From the IMG/VR virus record IMGVR_UViG_3300042306_001197, positions 1 to 62,021 of that record: a stretch of DNA of 62,021 bases; one strand, 5' to 3'. Every line of letters starts with the position of its first letter. Within the stretch, counting starts at the first letter, position 1. This DNA is from a virus. This document shows positions 24,069 through 34,645 of the stretch, piece by piece. Under the pieces are notes generated by a model, which did not search any database, was not told where the DNA came from, and saw only the letters and a list, made by a program, of their open reading frames with translations. The translations under genes were made by a program, and so were the position numbers.

Positions 24069-24305
24069 ATGAAAGAATTATTTAATGATGAAAATAAAAT
24101 AAATGAGAAAAGCCTTATTGGATTTTTAGCATTTTTAGTAATGGTAGGATTTGCAGCAGCAGATGTACTTACAGGTTATTTCGGAAAAGACCTAATTGTA
24201 AATGAATTTATATTTAACGCATTCCTTGTACTTTGCTTAGGAGCATTTGGATTTGGTTCTGTTGATAAGTTCATCAACTCTAAAAAAGAGGATTCAGAAG
24301 AGTAA
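24069..24305 (+). CDS. Small two-helix membrane protein
   Basis: The 78-residue protein has two hydrophobic helices (about 16-38, LIGFLAFLVMVGFAAADVL; and 47-66, FIFNAFLVLCLGAFGFG), separated by a short GYFGKDLIVNE loop, with charged ends. The topology suits a small inner-membrane protein or a second holin/antiholin. Its stop overlaps the start of the next gene by one base. It opens the block of envelope-directed genes. No family name is certain. Confidence 0.7.
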   Translation: MKELFNDENKINEKSLIGFLAFLVMVGFAAADVLTGYFGKDLIVNEFIFNAFLVLCLGAFGFGSVDKFINSKKEDSEE

Positions 24306-24778
24306 TGATTAAAAGATCAGCATTAATAATTTTTATGTTGATATCTTCTATAGCATTTTCACAAGAGATAAGTATAGGGCCTATTAATAATAAAATAGAG
24401 ATAGGCCCATTATCTGGAAACAGAGACTTAGCCTTTGGTATAAAAAATATATTAGAGGAGATATTACAAGAGAGAGGATATGAATTATTACCTAGTGCTG
24501 AAAAATCTATAGGAATAGACATACTTTACTTCGATGTTAAAAGCACCAATATGCAAATAGCATTATATGCTAACAACTTAGAGGTTACAGAAATAATAGC
24601 ACAAGGTAAGATAATCACACAAGGAAAAGAAATAAAAACAGTTGTAGCAAAAGGTCAAGCAAAGTCAGTATCAACAGCTACACTTATTATAGATCAAGGA
24701 GGTAAGTTTTCTCAAACTAACGTTTCATCAGCACTTAAGAAAGTCTGTGAACAAATTATCGACAAATTAAAAATATGA
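24305..24778 (+). CDS. Exported protein, periplasmic, unknown
   Basis: The 157-residue protein has a clear signal peptide (MIKRSALIIFMLISSIAFSQ, cleavage after ~19-20, SPase I type). The mature part alternates strands and helices: a helix in FGIKNILEEILQERGYEL, a strand-rich centre with IDILYFDVKSTNMQIALY, and a final SALKKVCEQIIDKL helix. This layout recalls small periplasmic alpha/beta proteins of the LpoB/YajG/CsgG-related type, but the evidence is only the pattern. It overlaps the next gene by 4 bp (ATGA), so the envelope genes are translationally coupled. Confidence 0.7.
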   Translation: MIKRSALIIFMLISSIAFSQEISIGPINNKIEIGPLSGNRDLAFGIKNILEEILQERGYELLPSAEKSIGIDILYFDVKSTNMQIALYANNLEVTEIIAQGKIITQGKEIKTVVAKGQAKSVSTATLIIDQGGKFSQTNVSSALKKVCEQIIDKLKI

Positions 24779-26370
24779 AAAAGCTTATAACACTTTTATT
24801 GCTAATACCAATATTTTCATTTGGTCAAGTTATAATTGATCAAACAATACTAGAGCCGGGTCCTTACAAGGTAGGCGATATTATAACATTAGAATACAGG
24901 CTTAACCCATCAAATTTAGATGTAAATTACATTTGGTTTAGATACGACTATAACAACAAGAACTTAGAGATGATACCAAACTCTACAGTTTTTACGCAAG
25001 GTCAGAGTACACAAACTTTCTATACTCACTGGAATAACTACATATTTAACCCAAATCCTCAAATAGGAGTTGGAGAATTATTAAGACAATACAATTCTGG
25101 AGGATGGAATTACACACAAAACAATGACTGGAATGTAGCTCAACTGTCTATACAAAGAGCAGACGCTAGTATATCAGGCATAATAGCTACACAAAAATAT
25201 AGAATAAAAGATAACACAAGCTTTAAAAATGTACACAAGTTACATTTAGCTTATGCTACAACTAGAAATAACACAGCTGTAACTAGCATTGGATCTAATG
25301 TATTGTGGCTAAGCTTGGACAATGTGTCAAGGTTAGTGTCCAGCGTTAAGTTTAAGGTAGCTTTTCCTGCTGGGTATGATATAACAAAACATAATGTACA
25401 AGTTATGGCTACTAACGCACAAGGCACAGTTGATTGGTCAACCAATCCTCAACCAGTTGCTATAGGACCGTTAGATTCATCTGGAGAGTTTTTGACAGAC
25501 AAGCTAGAAAAAAATAAACAATACCTAGTTATGGTAAACCCTGCTTGGGGGCAAAACGTACCAAGTAATATCATAACTGTGACGGATGCTTATAAAGCTT
25601 TTAAGGCACTAAACGACAGAGGCATAAACAATACAGATGCACAATTTAGCACAAGCTTAGAAAGCAGGATTGCCAATGTAACACAAGATCAGTCCTTTGA
25701 TAGCCAAGATGCTTATTATTTGTTTGCTACAGTAATGGGAATTGACTTATCTAGTGTACAAGGGCTTATGCTTCCTACAAAAGATATGACAAAACCCGTA
25801 AAGTTTTTATCAGGACCTACAGCAACATTTTCTAATATGACTGGTCCAAACAACATTACACCGGTAGCAGATGCAGAAGTATATAACTTATCTTATGCTT
25901 GGGGAGGAGATCTTGATTTTTCTCATTCATCTCCACTAGTAGTTAGTACAACAAGTGCATCAAGCAAAGGATTATCCATATCTAGCGTAGTACCACAGAT
26001 TGTATCAAAAGCAGATACATCAATTAATACATCATTAGTAAACGGAAAGGTTGTTGTTACTATAGGATTAAATGCCGAATCACTTGCAGGAGCAGAGTAC
26101 AAAATTGGATATGACGACAGCAAGTTAAAGCTAGATGATATAACATTCGATACGGGTAATACAGTTACAAATTTTTCAACACACAAAGAAAACATAGTAA
26201 CATTTGGTTCTCTAGATAAATCAGGTAATTCTTCCATAAAACAAGGAACACCATACAAGTTAATCTTTACACCAAAAGTGACATTGATTAACACATCAGG
26301 ATTAATATTCACATACTTTGCAGAAGCCGTAGACACAAAAGCTAACAAAGTAAACTTAACTATAAAATAA
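24775..26370 (+). CDS. Exported multi-domain protein with cohesin-like and dockerin-like segments
   Basis: The 531-residue protein has a signal peptide (MKKLITLLLLIPIFSFGQ). The N-terminal ~260 residues are beta-sandwich-like with aromatic-rich repeats. A segment near 270-330 (NDRGINNTDAQFS, then DQSFDSQDAYYLFATVMG) is like a dockerin-type Asp/Asn helix pair. The C-terminal ~120 residues (VNGKVVVTIGLNAESLAGAEYKIGYDDSKL... LIFTPKV) match the cohesin fold layout. Cohesin/dockerin-like domains in Bacteroidota usually mediate extracellular assembly, not cellulose degradation. The protein is probably surface-exposed or secreted. It is a cargo or scaffold candidate for the CsgG-like gene downstream. 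Confidence 0.7.
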   Translation: MKKLITLLLLIPIFSFGQVIIDQTILEPGPYKVGDIITLEYRLNPSNLDVNYIWFRYDYNNKNLEMIPNSTVFTQGQSTQTFYTHWNNYIFNPNPQIGVGELLRQYNSGGWNYTQNNDWNVAQLSIQRADASISGIIATQKYRIKDNTSFKNVHKLHLAYATTRNNTAVTSIGSNVLWLSLDNVSRLVSSVKFKVAFPAGYDITKHNVQVMATNAQGTVDWSTNPQPVAIGPLDSSGEFLTDKLEKNKQYLVMVNPAWGQNVPSNIITVTDAYKAFKALNDRGINNTDAQFSTSLESRIANVTQDQSFDSQDAYYLFATVMGIDLSSVQGLMLPTKDMTKPVKFLSGPTATFSNMTGPNNITPVADAEVYNLSYAWGGDLDFSHSSPLVVSTTSASSKGLSISSVVPQIVSKADTSINTSLVNGKVVVTIGLNAESLAGAEYKIGYDDSKLKLDDITFDTGNTVTNFSTHKENIVTFGSLDKSGNSSIKQGTPYKLIFTPKVTLINTSGLIFTYFAEAVDTKANKVNLTIK

Positions 26371-26372
26371 CT

Positions 26373-26744
26373 ATGAAAAGAGTACTCACAGGTATTGCAC
26401 TATTCACATTAATTTTTTCATGCTCAGACATGGACACAGTTACAGATATCCCCACTTCATCTGTACCATTAGAATTAGGACTAAACACCGTGGGGATAAA
26501 ACTAGCTTCTAACTTTGTAACAACAGAAGCAAGAATGAATGTTAGGTTAGAGGCAGCAGATAAAGTAACAATTAAAATAGTGGACTTATCTGGAAAAACT
26601 GTTTCTTCAGAAACTGTAGAAGCTAAAGCAGGAGACAACTTATTAAATGTTTACACAAAAGCATTACCAAGAAGTTCTTATGAACTTCATTTATACAATT
26701 CAAATAATCAACAAATAGGTAAAACCTTAATCAATTTATTATGA
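26373..26744 (+). CDS. Lipoprotein with T9SS-tail-like C-terminal domain
   Basis: The 123-residue protein begins with a lipoprotein signal (MKRVLTGIALFTLIFSCSD; lipobox LIFSC, lipidation at C17). The mature part has one beta domain. Its second half, VTIKIVDLSGKTVSSETV, GDNLLNVYTKALPRSSYELHLY, then IGKTLINL, closely follows the type A secretion-tail pattern of Bacteroidota ('v.iydlsGk.v......G.n...l..LpkG.Yllki....gk...kli'). A tail of this sort on a lipoprotein is odd, since T9SS cargo normally has an SPase I signal. It overlaps the next gene (ATGA). Confidence 0.65.
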   Translation: MKRVLTGIALFTLIFSCSDMDTVTDIPTSSVPLELGLNTVGIKLASNFVTTEARMNVRLEAADKVTIKIVDLSGKTVSSETVEAKAGDNLLNVYTKALPRSSYELHLYNSNNQQIGKTLINLL

Positions 26745-27043
26745 GCGAAGAACAAGGAGGAAACTCAATTAAGAACATCCTTATAGGATTAGTTAGTACT
26801 GTAACAATAGGAGTTGGTACATTTGTAACAAATAAATTAACAGGTGGAGAAGAGGAAGCTAAGACGGAAGTTGCTGCACCAGCCCCTGCCCCAGTTATTA
26901 ATATTACAAACACAAACCAACAAAAACAGGAACAAGCCGCACCAGCTGGAAAAACTATTATAATCAAAGAGAAAGCAGCACCAGTAAAAGCACAAGAGCC
27001 GGCACAGGAAAAAAAGAAAAAAGAAGAAGAAGAAACTTGGTAA
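26741..27043 (+). CDS. Membrane protein with Pro/Ala/Lys/Glu tail
   Basis: The 100-residue protein has one hydrophobic segment (about 11-31, ILIGLVSTVTIGVGTFVTN) followed by a low-complexity tail: Pro/Ala-rich (VAAPAPAPVINITN), then a Lys/Glu-rich end. The architecture is that of a TonB/periplasm-spanning-type linker, though no TonB motif is present. The tail composition resembles the Lys/Glu linker in the barrel protein at 27934 and might bind it (inference). It is coupled to the preceding lipoprotein. Confidence 0.65.
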   Translation: MSEEQGGNSIKNILIGLVSTVTIGVGTFVTNKLTGGEEEAKTEVAAPAPAPVINITNTNQQKQEQAAPAGKTIIIKEKAAPVKAQEPAQEKKKKEEEETW

Positions 27044-27044
27044 T

Positions 27045-27221
27045 ATGGAACAACTATTAACATTTATAGCAGTAGTATTTATAAGCGTATTTTCAATACT
27101 AGTTAATTTTCCAGAGCTGTTTGCATTATCTTTTATAGGGGGACTTATTTACTATAAAGTAGTCGGTCACAAAAAAGGTTGGGAATTACCAAAAGAAGTA
27201 AAAAAAAGACACCAATGGTAA
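27045..27221 (+). CDS. Small membrane protein
   Basis: A 58-residue frame starting at the ATG directly after the previous stop. It has two hydrophobic segments (LLTFIAVVFISVFSILV and FALSFIGGLIYYKVV), then a basic tail (KKGWELPKEVKKRHQW). Its last codons overlap the ATG of the CsgG-like gene, so it has its place in the translational chain and is likely real. Function unknown; the two helices and basic tail suggest an inner-membrane accessory. Confidence 0.7.
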   Translation: MEQLLTFIAVVFISVFSILVNFPELFALSFIGGLIYYKVVGHKKGWELPKEVKKRHQW

Positions 27222-27931
27222 AATTAATAACAGCAGTACTGCTTCTTATATCATTTACAACATCAGCACAAGTGATAGGTAAGACATCTACTGAAGATTA
27301 CCAAGCAGGTTTTGAAGGCAAAGAATCAATATACACTTTACCAGAATATAACGGAAAACCTGTACCAGTAGCATTGTTAGATATTGGAGTATCAAAGGAG
27401 GTAATAGAGCAGTATCCAGAGTTGGGGGACTATCGTGTAGGACTAGGATTGACAAACATAGTTGTAGCATACTTAGAAGAAACATTCAGATTTGAATTTG
27501 TAGAAACTAAGAATGATATTAAACAAAGAATGATAGCTCAGTATAAAGCCTCACAGAAGGGTATATCAACAGAAAAGATAGAACTGAAGGGAAACATCGT
27601 TTTAGCAAAATACTTCTGTTATATCGAAGTATATGACTTTTCTATTTCAGAAGACGAGACTATTAATCTAAAAGATGGTGTAAAAAATAAGCTAGTAACA
27701 AGGCTAGGTCTACAAGTTAAAATGGTAGATGCACAATCTGGAACTTATATGACAGGATCTGGATTAGGAAAAGCAGTAACAACAAGAGAAGTTACATTAC
27801 TAAACAATGAAAATTTAGAGGAGGTAAAATTTAATCAGTCAAGTATAGGGACATCAACTAAAAAAGCATTGGAAAGTGCTACAGCTAAGGTTGTTAAAAG
27901 AATGATTCAAAAACAAATATTTACAAACTAA
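27215..27931 (+). CDS. CsgG-like secretion-pore candidate
   Basis: The 238-residue protein starts from the ATG at 27215, which gives a good signal peptide (MVKLITAVLLLISFTTSAQ); a TTG start further upstream would hide it. The mature protein follows the CsgG-family pattern: VPVALLDIGVSKE near the start ('vavl.f'), a helix with LTNIVVAYLEETFRFEFVE ('l.e.L...grF.vver'), a middle strand pair with GLQVKMVDAQSGTYMTGSG ('ar.vd..tG.v..s'), and a C-terminal KKALESATAKVVKRM helix ('al..A...lv..l'). In curli systems CsgG is a nonameric outer-membrane export channel. The lipidated Cys of enterobacterial CsgG is absent. It lies between membrane/exported genes. Moderate confidence by pattern. Confidence 0.6.
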   Translation: MVKLITAVLLLISFTTSAQVIGKTSTEDYQAGFEGKESIYTLPEYNGKPVPVALLDIGVSKEVIEQYPELGDYRVGLGLTNIVVAYLEETFRFEFVETKNDIKQRMIAQYKASQKGISTEKIELKGNIVLAKYFCYIEVYDFSISEDETINLKDGVKNKLVTRLGLQVKMVDAQSGTYMTGSGLGKAVTTREVTLLNNENLEEVKFNQSSIGTSTKKALESATAKVVKRMIQKQIFTN

Positions 27932-27933
27932 GA

Positions 27934-29208
27934 TTGAAAAAATTCCTGTACATACTATTATTTTTTATAAGCACAGCGACATATAGTCAAACTGTTACAC
28001 AAACTTATTACGATAAGTGTACTGGAGAAACTAAGGTATTTACAATACCAATACAAGGAACAACTGTGGTGGTTTATTATAATAAGACGATGAACGTCAG
28101 TTATAATGACGTACAATCAGGAGCTTTCCAAGCTTGGTTAGAGGCAACTTATCAATGGTGGACAACATATAATCCTTGCTCAAGTGCTCAAGCTACTCAG
28201 AATGTTGTACAGCAAACAGCTCAACAAGCTACTCAGGCCGCAACACAAGCAGCCTCAGCAGCAGCAAGTGCAGCTAGTAGTGCAGCAGCTTCTGTACCAG
28301 TACCTTCAGCAACAACTTCTACCACAAACACCACTTCTACAAGTGGCAGCTCTTCATCATCTGAAACAAAAGCAGAGACAAAGACTGAAGCTAAGTCCGA
28401 AACAAAGTCAGAAGACAAAAATGAAGAGTCAAAGTCTGAGTCTAAGAAGGAAGAGAAAAAAGAAGAAGAAAAAAAAGAGGAAAAGAAGAAGGAAGATAAG
28501 AAAAAGCAACAATCTGTACAACCTGTATTACTTGCAGCCAACTACATGACAATGCAAAACCTAGATGGCTCATTTAATCAAGTAGCATCTTTTGGTTTAT
28601 CAAAAAGTTCATTGACTGGAGCTACATCTTATAGTGCAAATGCAATGATATGGAGTAACCTAAAACAGTTCTCTTTATCATTATCTAAAACAGACATGTT
28701 GTTTAACTATGATAGAAAGATACCTGTTAAAGTAGGTAAAGAAGTTATAGGGCATACATACGTAAGAGGTTCAATATATAAAATAACAGGACTTAGCGTA
28801 ACAGCAATGCTAATGTTTGACACAAGAGTATTATCCATAGGAATGAATGACGTATTCCTATTAAAGAAAGGAATGGTATTTGGTTATGCTTTAGGAGCAA
28901 CTTTCATAAATGTTGGTAAAGATGTAACAATGTCCCCTTTAGGAACAACGTTTATAACAAGACCTTTCCCATTTAAAAGGATAACTTTATCTCCAATGGT
29001 GGCTGTATCAGGATCGCCAATATCTTATACAACTTCGGCAAAAAAGCCCACTTTTAACCAACATGTTGTATACATTTTAGGAAACAATTTTGACTTTAAT
29101 CTAACACAAAGATTTAAAGCTAACTTAGGAATAAACACAATAGGAAACACAAATAAAGAAGTACCTATGACTTACGCAATAACAATAGGAAGTAAGATTA
29201 ACCTTTAA
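27934..29208 (+). CDS. Outer-membrane beta-barrel-like protein with Ala/Gln and Lys/Glu linkers
   Basis: The 424-residue protein starts at TTG, the only start that keeps the signal peptide (KKFLYILLFFISTATYSQ); the first ATG is 51 codons later. After a ~60-residue Cys-containing N-terminal domain come an Ala/Gln helix (~88-120), a Ser/Thr patch and a Lys/Glu-rich coil (to ~195). The C-terminal ~225 residues alternate hydrophobic/polar strands with Tyr/Phe at strand ends, finishing in YAITIGSKINL, as expected for an outer-membrane barrel. It follows the CsgG-like gene by 2 bp. It may anchor the exported proteins in the outer membrane (inference). Confidence 0.65.
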   Translation: MKKFLYILLFFISTATYSQTVTQTYYDKCTGETKVFTIPIQGTTVVVYYNKTMNVSYNDVQSGAFQAWLEATYQWWTTYNPCSSAQATQNVVQQTAQQATQAATQAASAAASAASSAAASVPVPSATTSTTNTTSTSGSSSSSETKAETKTEAKSETKSEDKNEESKSESKKEEKKEEEKKEEKKKEDKKKQQSVQPVLLAANYMTMQNLDGSFNQVASFGLSKSSLTGATSYSANAMIWSNLKQFSLSLSKTDMLFNYDRKIPVKVGKEVIGHTYVRGSIYKITGLSVTAMLMFDTRVLSIGMNDVFLLKKGMVFGYALGATFINVGKDVTMSPLGTTFITRPFPFKRITLSPMVAVSGSPISYTTSAKKPTFNQHVVYILGNNFDFNLTQRFKANLGINTIGNTNKEVPMTYAITIGSKINL

Positions 29209-29221
29209 AATAGAATAAACA

Positions 29222-29839
29222 ATGAGCAAAAAGATTGCAGAATTTCAAGCAGCTAACGGTTTAGTAGCCGATGGTATTTTAGGAAAAGCTTCATTTTCAA
29301 AAATGAAAGAATTGTGGAAAGTTTCAGATGAGCAACTTGCACACATACTAGGACAATGTCACCACGAGTCAGGAGGATTTACAGCTGACGTAGAGAACTT
29401 AAACTACGGAGCCAAAGGGTTACTAGGTATATTTAAAAAATACTTCCCTACAGAAGCACTAGCTAAAGCTTATGAAAGACAACCAGAAAAAATAGCTAAC
29501 AGAGTTTACGCATCTAGAATGGGTAACGGAGATGAAAAGTCTGGAGAAGGATGGAAATTTCGTGGAAGAGGAGCTCTTCAATTGACAGGCAAAGATAACT
29601 ACAAAGCTTTTACAGCTTTTATCAAAGAAGACTGTGTAGCTAACCCAGATCTTGTAAGAGGTAAATACTTTTTAGAAAGTGCATTATTCTTTTTCAACAA
29701 AAACGGATTACTTCCATTATGTACTACAGTTACAACTGACTCTATCACTAGAGTATCTAAAAGAGTAAATGGAGGAACACACGGACTAGAAGATAGAATC
29801 GTACAAACAAACAAGTTCTATAAACAAATCAAAGGATAA
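29222..29839 (+). CDS. Endolysin, GH19 family with N-terminal peptidoglycan-binding repeat
   Basis: The 205-residue protein starts with a short PG_binding_1-type module (IAEFQAANGLVADGILGKAS, 5-24; here shortened). The GH19 chitinase/lysozyme domain follows: HILGQCHHESGGF with the general acid E49, then YASRMGNGDEKSGEGWKFRGRG and GALQLTGKDNY (about 113-125), the family signature, and a late VSKRVNGGTHGLEDR (NGG motif). GH19 phage lysozymes cut the glycan strands of peptidoglycan. There is no signal peptide, so release needs the holin at 17464. The call is firm. Confidence 0.95.
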   Translation: MSKKIAEFQAANGLVADGILGKASFSKMKELWKVSDEQLAHILGQCHHESGGFTADVENLNYGAKGLLGIFKKYFPTEALAKAYERQPEKIANRVYASRMGNGDEKSGEGWKFRGRGALQLTGKDNYKAFTAFIKEDCVANPDLVRGKYFLESALFFFNKNGLLPLCTTVTTDSITRVSKRVNGGTHGLEDRIVQTNKFYKQIKG

Positions 29840-29844
29840 AAATT

Positions 29845-30150
29845 ATGAACTTCATCAAAAACCAATGGTTAGCTGGAGTTGTCATCATAATTTGGATTAT
29901 TGTCTCACTATCCAGCAACAATAATAAAGAGTTGCTGGAAGAGACAAAACAGCTAAAAATAGAAGTTGACAGCTTACAAACCATATCAGCAGGAAAAGGA
30001 AAACAAATTGACAGTCTATCAGAAGTAGATACATTAATAGTCAATAAAATAAAAACCATTAAAGAAAAAGAATATGTTGAAATTAAAGTTATTGATAGTC
30101 TTCCTATTAGTGGGCTTCAGCAGTTTTTCACAGACCGTTACGAAAGATAG
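29845..30150 (+). CDS. Inner-membrane spanin-like protein (Rz-like)
   Basis: The 101-residue protein has one N-terminal membrane helix (QWLAGVVIIIWIIVSLSS, 7-24) followed by a helical coiled-coil periplasmic part (LLEETKQLKIEVDSLQTI...). It lies 5 bp after the endolysin, and the next gene starts inside it in another frame. This is the arrangement of Rz/Rz1, whose products bridge the envelope and fuse the two membranes at the end of lysis. Sequence conservation of spanins is low, so topology and position are the evidence. Confidence 0.75.
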   Translation: MNFIKNQWLAGVVIIIWIIVSLSSNNNKELLEETKQLKIEVDSLQTISAGKGKQIDSLSEVDTLIVNKIKTIKEKEYVEIKVIDSLPISGLQQFFTDRYER

Positions 30151-30544
30151 TGTAGTAGTACTTACAGAAAAACAAGCTAGAGCAGTAGCTACAGACCTAG
30201 TTAGGTACGATGCCTTAAAGCAAGTATCTAAATTACAAGAAGACAGAATAGTAAACTTTCAAGCAAAGGAGAAGCTATTCGGAGAACAAACAGAAATAAA
30301 AGATCTAATAATATCTAAACAAACTAGTATTATAGACAAACAAAATAAAATTTTGAATGCACCTGAAAAAATAAAACTTCACAGTTATTTAGGAGTACAA
30401 ACAAAAGAGCTTACACTAGAACAACCTACTCTTAGAGGAGATATATTTCTAGAATATAAAAAGTTAAGGGCTGGAGCAATTTATACAATACAGCAAAACA
30501 ACCCGTCTAACTGGGGGATACTATTCCAATACAGATTATTTTAA
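30074..30544 (+). CDS. Exported partner of the spanin, possibly outer-membrane
   Basis: The 156-residue protein starts inside the preceding gene (77-bp overlap, different frame). It has a signal peptide (MLKLKLLIVFLLVGFSSFSQ), but the cleavage site lacks the lipobox Cys expected for an Rz1 lipoprotein. The mature part has a coiled-coil (about 50-95: VSKLQEDRIVNFQAKEK...) and a beta C-terminus ending in YRLF, the terminal-Phe signature of outer-membrane proteins. It may therefore be an unusual o-spanin with a barrel-like outer-membrane anchor in place of a lipid. The overlap supports a spanin pair; the novel anchor is inference. Confidence 0.65.
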   Translation: MLKLKLLIVFLLVGFSSFSQTVTKDSVVVLTEKQARAVATDLVRYDALKQVSKLQEDRIVNFQAKEKLFGEQTEIKDLIISKQTSIIDKQNKILNAPEKIKLHSYLGVQTKELTLEQPTLRGDIFLEYKKLRAGAIYTIQQNNPSNWGILFQYRLF

Positions 30545-30998: not shown

Positions 30999-31316
30999 AT
31001 GACAGCATGTAGCCAAACAAGCGGCCCAATAATAAATAGAGTAGTAGATCCATGTAATGGAATACACACCTCTACAGATTGTGTCGTACACAGTGAGCCT
31101 ATAACTTACTTATTTATAGAAGATAATACAAACTTGACTACTGTTTTAGAAGCAATTGTATTATCACTACAAAGTAATAATACTAGAGTTACTCAATTAG
31201 AAGAAGAAAACGCACAACAAGCGTCAGCAATTACAGTCTTACAAGGACAAGTAATTGATATACAACAAGCAATATTAGATATCCAAGGAAGACTAGATAC
31301 TTGTTGCCCACAATAG
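30999..31316 (+). CDS. Short paralogue of the long adhesin's N-terminal module
   Basis: A 105-residue protein. The pattern DPCNGIHTSTDCVVHSEPI, then NTNLTTVLEAIVLSL, followed by a coiled coil and a terminal CCPQ, can be aligned with the first ~105 residues of the next gene (EDPCIQGSLSTNCIFYGLAI, STNFADTLGHIVAKL, ending CCPEP). So it is the same anchor plus coiled-coil module without the adhesin part. It may act as a capping/assembly partner, or compete for the same site on the virion. Tandem duplication is the simplest origin. Confidence 0.75.
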   Translation: MTACSQTSGPIINRVVDPCNGIHTSTDCVVHSEPITYLFIEDNTNLTTVLEAIVLSLQSNNTRVTQLEEENAQQASAITVLQGQVIDIQQAILDIQGRLDTCCPQ

Positions 31317-31342
31317 TAATAATAAAAAAACAAAAACCAATC

Positions 31343-34300
31343 ATGGCAGCATGTAATCAAACAGACATACCGGTTTTAAACATACAAGAGGATCCTTGCA
31401 TTCAGGGGTCCTTATCAACCAATTGCATATTCTACGGATTAGCAATAGCTTATTTGGGCACACAAGACAGCACAAATTTTGCAGACACTTTAGGACATAT
31501 CGTAGCAAAACTTGAAGCTGGTAATAATTTAGCAACTGACTTAGAAGAGATTAATAGAGCACAGTCATTATTAATAGAAGAATTACAGGAGAGTATCTCT
31601 GAAAGCCTAATTACTTTATCTGAGATACAAGTATTACTAGACGAGTGTTGCCCTGAGCCTACCACAACTAGTACAACTACTTCGGTACCAACTACTAGTA
31701 CAACAACAATTTATTCTACTACAACAACTACTCCAAGTTCAACTATATGGTTTGGCAAATTTTCAAACACGAATAATAAATATGAAGTATGTTTTGGAGG
31801 AAATTGGAGCAGTGCAAATGTGTATACCACAGTTAGCTCTGGACCATTTGCCCCAGGAACACCACTTTATACAAACCAGTCATTAACAACATTGTGGCCA
31901 ACTAATGGAGTGATGTCTATTAATGATGTTGCATACACAATTGTAAATGGATACACTGTTGGAGCTGGTGAACCTTGTTCAAGCACAACTACTAGTACAA
32001 CAACAGTTATAAACCAAACAGCTGGGTCTTACGTAACTGAGTATGGAGTTGGAGTAGCTTTATATAATGCGGATGGAACAGAAGCAGGTAAATACTGGAC
32101 AGTAGGAAATAACTATAGTCAATTTACCAATATACCAGCAGGGCAATATTTAGGTATTGGAACTACTTTATATTTTGACGTAGCATGCACACAACAATGG
32201 ACTTTCCCTTTAATTTACTTAGTTACAGGTGTAACAGACCAATACAATATAAATCCATATACAGTTATTTGGAAAGTTGAAAATGGGGTAGTTACAGAAA
32301 ACTTTGGACAATTTGTAAATAAGGCATACTCAGTATTTAATGGTTCAAAAGTACAAAATGATCTAGTGCCTTGTAACGAATTTTTACCAAATGGAGTATT
32401 TTTAGACAATGGCTACACTGCTCTTATGCCTGGAATAAATGTTTACAGTGCACAAGGATCTGCAATTACACCAGTACCCTTATCTTATAACTATATAACA
32501 GATGGCACAAATGTGTATACAATTGTAAACAATGTTTTAACATCTCCACAGCCATGTAGCGGAATAACTACGACAACGAGTACTACAACTACTACTACAA
32601 CACCAACAACTACAACTACTACAACAGTAGTACCTTCACTTGGTAGAACTTTTGCCTACGGTAATCCTGTTACATGTGAAGTAGGTCCTGGTGTACCTAC
32701 TACGACAGTATATGTTAGAGATAATGTCGATGGTCAAAATTTAGCTATAGGTACTGGATTATATGCAGATGAAGCACTTACAACATACTTTAGACCATTT
32801 GGAAATACATCTTATGAAATACGTTTTGCAGGAAATCAATATACTGTTTTTGCGATGATTACAGGTGAAGCGTATATCAATAGTGAACCTGTACCTTGTA
32901 CTACTACAACTACTACAACAGTTGCAGTACCGGGATCTTATATACTAGGAACAACTGGGATAAGCCCATGGGACATAGTTTTAGACTCAGAAGGTAACGT
33001 CTATACATCTAACGTTAGTAGTAAAAGTGTTTCAAAAATAACACCAGATGGAACTTCTACCATTTTAGGCACAACAGGAGAAATACCTAGGGGAATAACA
33101 ATTGATACACAAGGTAATATCTATGTGATAAATTCAGGGGATAATACTGTGACTAAAATTACACCGTCTGGAGTTTCTACTATCTTAGGATCAGCAGGCA
33201 CTGGAGCAAATGATATAGCAGTAGACCAGCAAGGCAATGTCTATGTAAATAATAATGGGCCAAATACTGTGACTAAAATTACACCACAAGGGGTATCTAC
33301 AACTTTTGCATCAGTAGCCTCAAATCCACAGTGCATAACAATAGACGCACAAGGAAATGTGTACACTGCTAGTCCTAATGTAGTTAATAAAATTACACCG
33401 TCTGGAGTTTCTACTATTTTAGGTAACACACTTTACCACCCTCTTGACATAATTGTTGATGACTTAGGTAATGTTTATGTATCCACTGCAGGAAACCAAG
33501 TTGTTAAAATAACACCTTCAGGAGTTTCTACATCATTAGGCTATGTTGGAAGCTCTCCTTATGGAATAGCTTTAGACAGCTCTGGAAATGTGTACACATC
33601 GAATGCATTGTCTGACAATGTTTCAAAAATAACACCAGATGGAGTAATAACAGTTATAGCAACAACAGGACTTGGTCCAATGGCTATTGTAGTAGACCCA
33701 GCAGGTAATGTATACACTGCAAACTCTAACTCAAACAACGTAACTAAAATTGTACAAGCACCTACCACAACTACTACCATAGCCCCTACAACTACAACTA
33801 CAACAACTGTAGCACCAGGCACACTTGGGCTTTTAGGAGATGCCGGTGATGGTCCAAAGTCAATAGTACTAAATGCGGCAAGCGATGTATTTATTGCCGC
33901 ACAAAACAGCAGTAGAACGTTTAAGTTTACTACAGCTGGATTAGATAATAGCTATGGTATATCAACAAATCCTGAGGATTTAGCTATAGATCAGAGTGGT
34001 AATGTATACGCAGTAACTACTATTAATAATAATATTATTAAAATATTACCTAATGGAACAAGTAGTATTTTTGCAACATTGCCTTCACAAGGGTATCAAA
34101 TAACCATAGACAGTTTAGGAAATATTTATACATTGCACCCTAATCAAAACATCATATACAAAACAGAACCAAACGGTACAGTTACAAATTTTGGATCTAT
34201 TACTTCAAGCTCATATAGTCTTGTAACAGATTCTCAAAATAATATATACGTAACTAACTTAATGGATAAAACTATATTTAAGTTTACACCAAGCGGTAAT

Positions 34301-34645
34301 AAAACAACATTTGCCACACTTACTGCTAATCCTAGACAAATTACAGTAGATACCTTAGATAATTTATATGTTTCTACTAATAGTAACACTGTGTTAAAAA
34401 TAACACCTTCTGGAGTAGTTAATGTAATGGCAACTTTAGGCACAAACCTACAAGAGCTTACAGTAGACGCAAGTGGGAATGTTTATGTAACTGATATAAT
34501 ATTTGATAAAATATATAAGATAACACCTTCCGGAACAGTTACAGATCTAGTAACAATGAGTGGAATGTATAATCCTATAGCAACAGATTCAAACTATGTA
34601 TATTTTGGAATATCAAGTGGTAACACTTATAAAATAAAATTATAA
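31343..34645 (+). CDS. Long modular adhesin with two seven-bladed NHL-type propellers
   Basis: The 1100-residue protein starts at the ATG 31343, giving MAACNQTDIP like its neighbour; an earlier start at 31301 is inside the previous gene. Modules: anchor/coiled coil (1-104, ends CCPEP); Thr linker; Cys domain A (to ~212, ends EPC); Thr linker; domain B (to ~405, ends QPC); Thr linker; domain C (to ~518, ends VPC); Thr linker; propeller 1 (~532-805, seven 'I.vD..GNvY...n...v.KITP.G..T' repeats); Thr linker (~806-825); propeller 2 (~826-1100, seven repeats). The repeats are of the NHL/Vgb-like type. Thr linkers lie before every module. Likely a virion-bound receptor or glycan-binding fibre. No signal peptide, so it is not host-exported. 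Confidence 0.85.
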   Translation: MAACNQTDIPVLNIQEDPCIQGSLSTNCIFYGLAIAYLGTQDSTNFADTLGHIVAKLEAGNNLATDLEEINRAQSLLIEELQESISESLITLSEIQVLLDECCPEPTTTSTTTSVPTTSTTTIYSTTTTTPSSTIWFGKFSNTNNKYEVCFGGNWSSANVYTTVSSGPFAPGTPLYTNQSLTTLWPTNGVMSINDVAYTIVNGYTVGAGEPCSSTTTSTTTVINQTAGSYVTEYGVGVALYNADGTEAGKYWTVGNNYSQFTNIPAGQYLGIGTTLYFDVACTQQWTFPLIYLVTGVTDQYNINPYTVIWKVENGVVTENFGQFVNKAYSVFNGSKVQNDLVPCNEFLPNGVFLDNGYTALMPGINVYSAQGSAITPVPLSYNYITDGTNVYTIVNNVLTSPQPCSGITTTTSTTTTTTTPTTTTTTTVVPSLGRTFAYGNPVTCEVGPGVPTTTVYVRDNVDGQNLAIGTGLYADEALTTYFRPFGNTSYEIRFAGNQYTVFAMITGEAYINSEPVPCTTTTTTTVAVPGSYILGTTGISPWDIVLDSEGNVYTSNVSSKSVSKITPDGTSTILGTTGEIPRGITIDTQGNIYVINSGDNTVTKITPSGVSTILGSAGTGANDIAVDQQGNVYVNNNGPNTVTKITPQGVSTTFASVASNPQCITIDAQGNVYTASPNVVNKITPSGVSTILGNTLYHPLDIIVDDLGNVYVSTAGNQVVKITPSGVSTSLGYVGSSPYGIALDSSGNVYTSNALSDNVSKITPDGVITVIATTGLGPMAIVVDPAGNVYTANSNSNNVTKIVQAPTTTTTIAPTTTTTTTVAPGTLGLLGDAGDGPKSIVLNAASDVFIAAQNSSRTFKFTTAGLDNSYGISTNPEDLAIDQSGNVYAVTTINNNIIKILPNGTSSIFATLPSQGYQITIDSLGNIYTLHPNQNIIYKTEPNGTVTNFGSITSSSYSLVTDSQNNIYVTNLMDKTIFKFTPSGNKTTFATLTANPRQITVDTLDNLYVSTNSNTVLKITPSGVVNVMATLGTNLQELTVDASGNVYVTDIIFDKIYKITPSGTVTDLVTMSGMYNPIATDSNYVYFGISSGNTYKIKL
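33142..33417 (+). repeat. Exact DNA repeats between propeller blades
   Basis: TAAAATTACACCGTCTGGAG and the bases after it (30 bases) occur at 33154-33183 and again at 33388-33417. A 23-base AATACTGTGACTAAAATTAC... stretch occurs at 33142-33164 and 33262-33284. Identity at DNA level implies recent blade duplication or gene conversion in propeller 1; propeller 2 shows no such exact copies by eye. Confidence 0.7.

Follow-up and report, generated by a model that had tools for sequence, protein, structure and literature searches.

Introduction

Phages alter the surface of infected cells, usually by way of one or two small proteins. Type VIII secretion system (T8SS) cassettes comprising csgG, csgF and csgA/B have been described in pelagiphages (PMC9599517) and in methylophage Melnitz (PMC9004378). 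The locus analyzed here lies in a 62,021-nucleotide stretch of viral DNA (the window). It resembles these cassettes in that a CsgG-superfamily gene is found in unrelated phage families, is exchanged across them and is not part of the host's own repertoire, with a surface or lysis role proposed. It differs in that no CsgF or curlin gene was found and the CsgG-like protein has no recognizable hairpins, while a separate barrel, a second CsgG-fold protein, an inner-membrane anchor and cohesin/dockerin/lectin proteins are predicted, in phages of Bacteroidota. Since phage T8SS cassettes are known, the kind of module has precedent, although its composition here differs.

Two further systems are comparable. 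In the PelB–PelC outer-membrane export complex, a ring of PelC lipoproteins sits beneath the PelB barrel (PMC12141448). The shared features are a CsgG-fold lipoprotein together with a single-chain β-barrel, and PelC ranks high among the structural matches of the CsgG-like protein described below. Nevertheless, no sequence relation to Pel was found, the barrel has about 12 strands, and there is neither a TPR scaffold nor a set of polysaccharide synthesis genes. The amyloid exporter FapF (PMC5557850) likewise has a helix and linker before a barrel of about 12 strands and is among the structural matches of the barrel protein, but identity is only 5–8%, no other Fap gene is present here, and porins share a general barrel likeness. 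No description of the cassette itself was found in the open-licence literature.

Results

Layout of the cassette

The window encodes a crAss-type terminase and portal (phrog_6547, phrog_6681), and the best relatives of its terminase and capsid are Cellulophaga phi4:1, phi17:2 and csAssE-Sib. The window is thus a crAss-like podovirus, as had been proposed, with flavobacteria-like hosts.

The cassette and its coordinates (24069–29208) were upheld, with eight ORFs rather than the seven proteins of the original prediction, all on the plus strand and with junctions spanning −7 to +2 nt (Table 1; ORFs are named by their first position). The start codon of 27934 is TTG. PHROGs offered no convincing name for any of the eight. 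Outside the cassette, the sole other convincing signal-peptide protein among the scanned genes is 30074, and the remaining rule matches look false or are transmembrane (TM) anchors. The original remark that such a number of exported proteins is rare in phages holds within the window, but the same combination was found again in hundreds of phages from the environment.

Table 1. Features of the cassette and its flanking endolysin. Signal peptides, the lipobox and hydrophobic helices come from a rule-based scan covering 51 window genes.
Feature	Coordinates	Strand	Remarks
Two-helix membrane protein	24069..24305	+	78 aa; TM segments 16–34, 42–60
Exported YajG/CsgG-fold protein, predicted (component A)	24305..24778	+	157 aa; N-terminal signal peptide; PF03923 match
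Large exported protein	24775..26370	+	531 aa; N-terminal signal peptide; cohesin-like C-terminus (~aa 410–531), dockerin-like segment centrally
Lipoprotein with Por_Secre_tail/FlgD_ig-like domain	26373..26744	+	123 aa; lipobox IFSC
Single-pass inner-membrane protein	26741..27043	+	100 aa; TM 12–30; periplasmic tail rich in Pro/Gln/Lys
Small membrane protein, optional	27045..27221	+	58 aa; TM 4–22
CsgG-superfamily exported protein, predicted (component B)	27215..27931	+	238 aa; N-terminal signal peptide
Outer-membrane barrel protein, predicted (component C)	27934..29208	+	424 aa; N-terminal signal peptide; AlphaFold model
Endolysin (GH19-like), flanking, outside conserved core	29222..29839	+	phrog_181 E 1.9e-57

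A promoter pattern of the Bacteroidota type, TTTG-N19-23-TANNTTTG, occurs 14 times in the window against 3.2 expected, and is absent between 13.6 and 38.6 kb, hence also from the cassette. The cassette is therefore probably read together with the tail and lysis genes. Its position between the fibre and endolysin genes was as predicted, and this position, with the missing promoter, makes expression late in infection probable.

Downstream of the endolysin, the genes at 29845–30150 and 30074–30544 overlap and encode a TM/coiled-coil-like protein followed by an exported protein. The pair is spanin-like (Rz/Rz1) and is conserved in a crAss-like relative, L004.

Two CsgG-fold proteins and a related cellular operon

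The 27215 protein itself has no Pfam CsgG match (PF03783), remaining below threshold, and the window search was also negative. Nevertheless, its homologues in L086, L087, L088 and L090 exceed the curated PF03783 cut-off, and one of them exceeds that of LpoB as well. Cellular homologues come from KSB1 and deltaproteobacterial genomes; family comparisons were based on alignments A4 and A7. A sequence search of the PDB with CsgG-like family profiles returned nothing convincing, and hhalign of the 27215 family against E. coli CsgG alone was insignificant, although in register.

The AlphaFold model of 27215 is of middling confidence (pLDDT 69). In Foldseek its best structural match is CsgG (4uv2; E 8.5e-6, probability 1.00, TM ~0.45–0.50), with PelC, GNA1162, FlgT and LptE also matched; in a viral structure library only one match falls below 1e-3, a phage protein with a CsgG annotation. 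Taken with the homologues above the Pfam cut-off, the model indicates that 27215 is a distant member of the CsgG superfamily, and the CsgG pattern read from its sequence is thus borne out at superfamily level. In the family as a whole, 26 of 63 distinct members carry a lipobox, so that the protein is a lipoprotein in many relatives.

CsgG becomes a pore through two membrane hairpins per subunit. After the E. coli CsgG sequence had been checked, the corresponding parts of 27215 were compared with it, and two amphipathic hairpins were not recognizable: the equivalent segments are charged and have an outward-face score of about 1 on a simple, untrained scale, against 3.2 for E. coli CsgG hairpin 2. 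The deltaproteobacterial homologues have no second-hairpin segment at all, and across the cellular operons L086–L090 it is shorter or absent. A CsgG nonamer-type pore made by 27215, which had been expected, is therefore unsupported, and the separate protein 27934 is the more likely candidate for the pore.

Protein 24305 matches PF03923 (Lipoprotein_16) with 25.4 bits, barely above the cut-off of 25. Its family aligns both with the 27215 family and with gene A of a cellular operon (hhalign ~97.7% each, the pairwise E-values being uncorrected for database search). On these alignments, 24305 is a second, YajG-like CsgG-fold protein. A match of the YajG-like profile to ribosomal protein S1 in the PDB was judged a chance similarity.

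The A7 profile also matches genes neighbouring the CsgG-like gene in KSB1 (6.6e-15) and in a desulfuromonad (2.0e-12), which indicates that a pair of CsgG-fold genes and a gene for a barrel-like protein make up the cellular operon. This three-gene arrangement is rare and was seen in Desulfuromonadales, Desulfobacterota and KSB1 (L086–L090); one of the barrel-like genes has a Pfam OMP_b-brl match. The phage cassette repeats the A–B–barrel plan of the cellular operon, with a CsgG-like protein 27–33% identical over the alignment. In contrast to the phages, no cohesin/dockerin or small TM gene was seen beside the cellular CsgG-like gene, and profile comparison detected no similarity between the phage and cellular barrels.

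The close 27215 family is rare among the sampled bacterial genomes, and the genome matches L083, L084 and L085 look like phage sequence. The L085 contig, filed as a Sphingomonadaceae MAG, carries the cassette and looks like a misbinned Bacteroidota phage.

The barrel protein

The AlphaFold model of 27934 has a pLDDT of 68, with residues 198–423 mostly at 60–88. An N-terminal domain with a Cys pair is followed by a helix (84–119); a disordered linker then leads into a barrel (198–423) of about 12 strands. The best Foldseek matches are NanC, KdgM, FapF and other porins, a likeness of shape only. The model and the signal peptide are consistent with the barrel that had been anticipated, and 27934 is predicted to be an outer-membrane β-barrel. 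PHROGs matches to this protein were dismissed as a low-complexity artefact.

Distribution and exchange between phages

A first scan of IMG/VR confirmed at least 119 relatives of the CsgG-like protein, and a second found it encoded at no fewer than 541 places, the sampling being aquatic. Among named phages, a 27215 homologue (52.7% identity) occurs only in Immutovirus, a T4-like phage of Flavobacterium, in which gp015–gp019 are the counterpart of the cassette. The cultured phage vB_FspM_immuto (Flavobacterium sp. LMO8) carries it, so that its function is directly testable.

Five core families, all exported or membrane-anchored, make up the cassette: 24305, 27215, 27934, 26741 and 24775 (with 26373). 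Their profiles were built from the first IMG/VR set, which leaves 52 independent loci among the 101 with at least 5 kb of flank on both sides. All five families are present in 97 of the 101 loci and in 49 of the 52 left out of profile building; singly, the 27934 family was found in 52 of these 52, the 26741 family in 51 and the 24305 family in 50. The same families recur in the same order, an arrangement beyond chance, while the flanking genes vary.

The tail of 26741 is conserved in relatives and ends in an acidic motif with a terminal Trp (EEETW in the window). Clear similarity to 27045 is confined to a few close relatives, and elsewhere different TM genes fill its slot.

Among 26 records tested, a crAss portal was detected in L004 and T4 Gp23 in 15. 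The cassette thus occurs both in crAss-like phages, the window among them, and in T4-like myoviruses including Immutovirus. In L005–L007, Immutovirus flanks on both sides (RNR 94–96%) enclose a window-type cassette, with a 27215 homologue 85–87% identical to that of the window and 48–51% to that of Immuto. L072 has an Immuto-type cassette; in L018 the downstream flank is again the same, and the genes are of the Immuto type. Two diverged versions of the cassette can thus occupy a single Immutovirus-type slot, which shows that it is exchanged as one unit between phage lineages. That hundreds of environmental phages of two lineages keep and swap the whole exported set is a sign of strong selection on some surface function.

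Proposed function

Several roles had been proposed at the outset, namely building a surface pore or fibre, blocking superinfection, altering the envelope ahead of lysis and displaying an adhesin; export or surface display fits best. The cassette would be a self-contained, horizontally exchanged module with which the infected Bacteroidota cell builds a trans-envelope export or surface-display device, a reading to which we give about an even chance. By analogy with PelC under PelB, the CsgG-fold proteins 24305 and 27215 would form a periplasmic collar beneath the 27934 barrel. Protein 26741 might tether collar and barrel to the inner membrane, and the cohesin, dockerin and lectin proteins could be cargo or a surface layer. 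The payoff would probably be an altered cell surface late in infection, blocking superinfection or capturing neighbouring cells. We infer complex formation, the direction of transport, the cargo and the benefit to the phage, and the ring and the contact between components A, B and C are proposed by analogy with known systems. The stronger claim, that collar, barrel, tether and cargo, spread as one cassette among unrelated phages, are a new class of envelope-spanning phage secretion or display system giving infected Bacteroidota cells an adhesive coat, is tentative and rather doubtful.

The putative cargo bears on a first alternative. Protein 24775 has no direct significant Pfam match, cohesin and dockerin included. 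Nevertheless, hhalign aligned its C-terminus with a profile of the cohesin domains found in related proteins, at a probability of 77%. Among 33 proteins, drawn from the large exported family and from its lectin partners, cohesin (PF00963) was recognized in 15, dockerin (PF00404) in 3, Por_Secre_tail in 16 and C-type lectin in 7. The cohesin- and dockerin-like segments first noticed in the sequence are thus recognized domains in relatives, and 24775 can be assigned to a cohesin/dockerin/T9SS-tail family. A C-type lectin–dockerin partner gene is often present in other phages and is missing from the window clade.

Por_Secre_tail is a type A sorting domain of type IX secretion (T9SS). The host T9SS might therefore export the cargo, leaving the barrel and CsgG-fold part to another use, for instance the uptake of nutrients or the masking of a receptor, and the likeness of 27934 to the oligosaccharide porins NanC and KdgM would suit this. 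In the window clade, however, the tail domain (PF18962, E 4.2e-5, slightly under the cut-off) belongs to a lipoprotein of its own, 26373 (lipobox in 11 of 11 relatives), and would thus be unable to sort the cohesin protein. In other clades the cohesin protein itself carries this domain as a C-terminal fusion, as in Immuto gp015, and the separate lipoprotein gene holds the same position as the fused form; from this split we infer that 24775 and 26373 are functionally linked. Cargo and barrel genes are also almost never apart, and the T9SS alternative seems unlikely.

A role in lysis, with the barrel/CsgG-fold complex permeabilizing or destabilizing the outer membrane as a timer or pore before endolysin release, is suggested by the neighbouring genes; in methylophage Melnitz, too, CsgGF has been proposed to act in lysis (PMC9004378). 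In many relatives the 24069-type gene directly precedes the endolysin, so that 24069 is probably a holin-like lysis gene and not part of the cassette proper; the remaining genes lie between it and the endolysin in the window. Same-strand endolysin genes occur within 6 kb in 44 of the 101 loci, which leaves more than half without one, and in Immuto some 6 kb separate the cassette, which adjoins ribonucleotide reductase (RNR) genes, from the annotated endolysin. Moreover, the window already has the spanin-like pair 29845/30074, and a lysis role would not account for the cohesin, dockerin and lectin domains. An aid to lysis is thus quite unlikely.

Curli-type (type VIII) secretion, in which 27215 would be the CsgG pore exporting amyloid fibre subunits, draws on the structural match to CsgG and on the complete T8SS with CsgA/B of pelagiphages (PMC9599517). 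The absence of a Pfam match and of recognizable hairpins in 27215 speaks against it, as does a separate barrel gene in nearly all loci. In addition, no cassette protein matched CsgF, CsgE or curlin repeats in Pfam, PHROGs or NCBIfam, searches that remote homologues could escape. Curli-type export is accordingly very improbable.

That the proteins are virion components with hydrophobic N-termini acting as assembly segments, as the adjacent fibre genes of the window might suggest, is the least credible reading, since classic signal peptides and lipoboxes run across the families and the Immutovirus cassette lies far from the structural module; a virion role of the signal-peptide genes is unlikely.

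Variation at related loci

Several loci depart from the common arrangement. In L011 (1837–6432), the large exported protein and the lipoprotein-tail gene each occur twice in tandem, a local duplication within the cassette. The order is rearranged in L146 and L147, with the barrel upstream and the cohesin genes doubled. Outside the cassette, the window also encodes, at 31301–34645, a long protein that has repeated propeller-like segments with threonine runs between them. In L013 (11910–13571), a concanavalin-like (LamG-like) insertion breaks the C-type lectin domain, which suggests exchange of binding domains.
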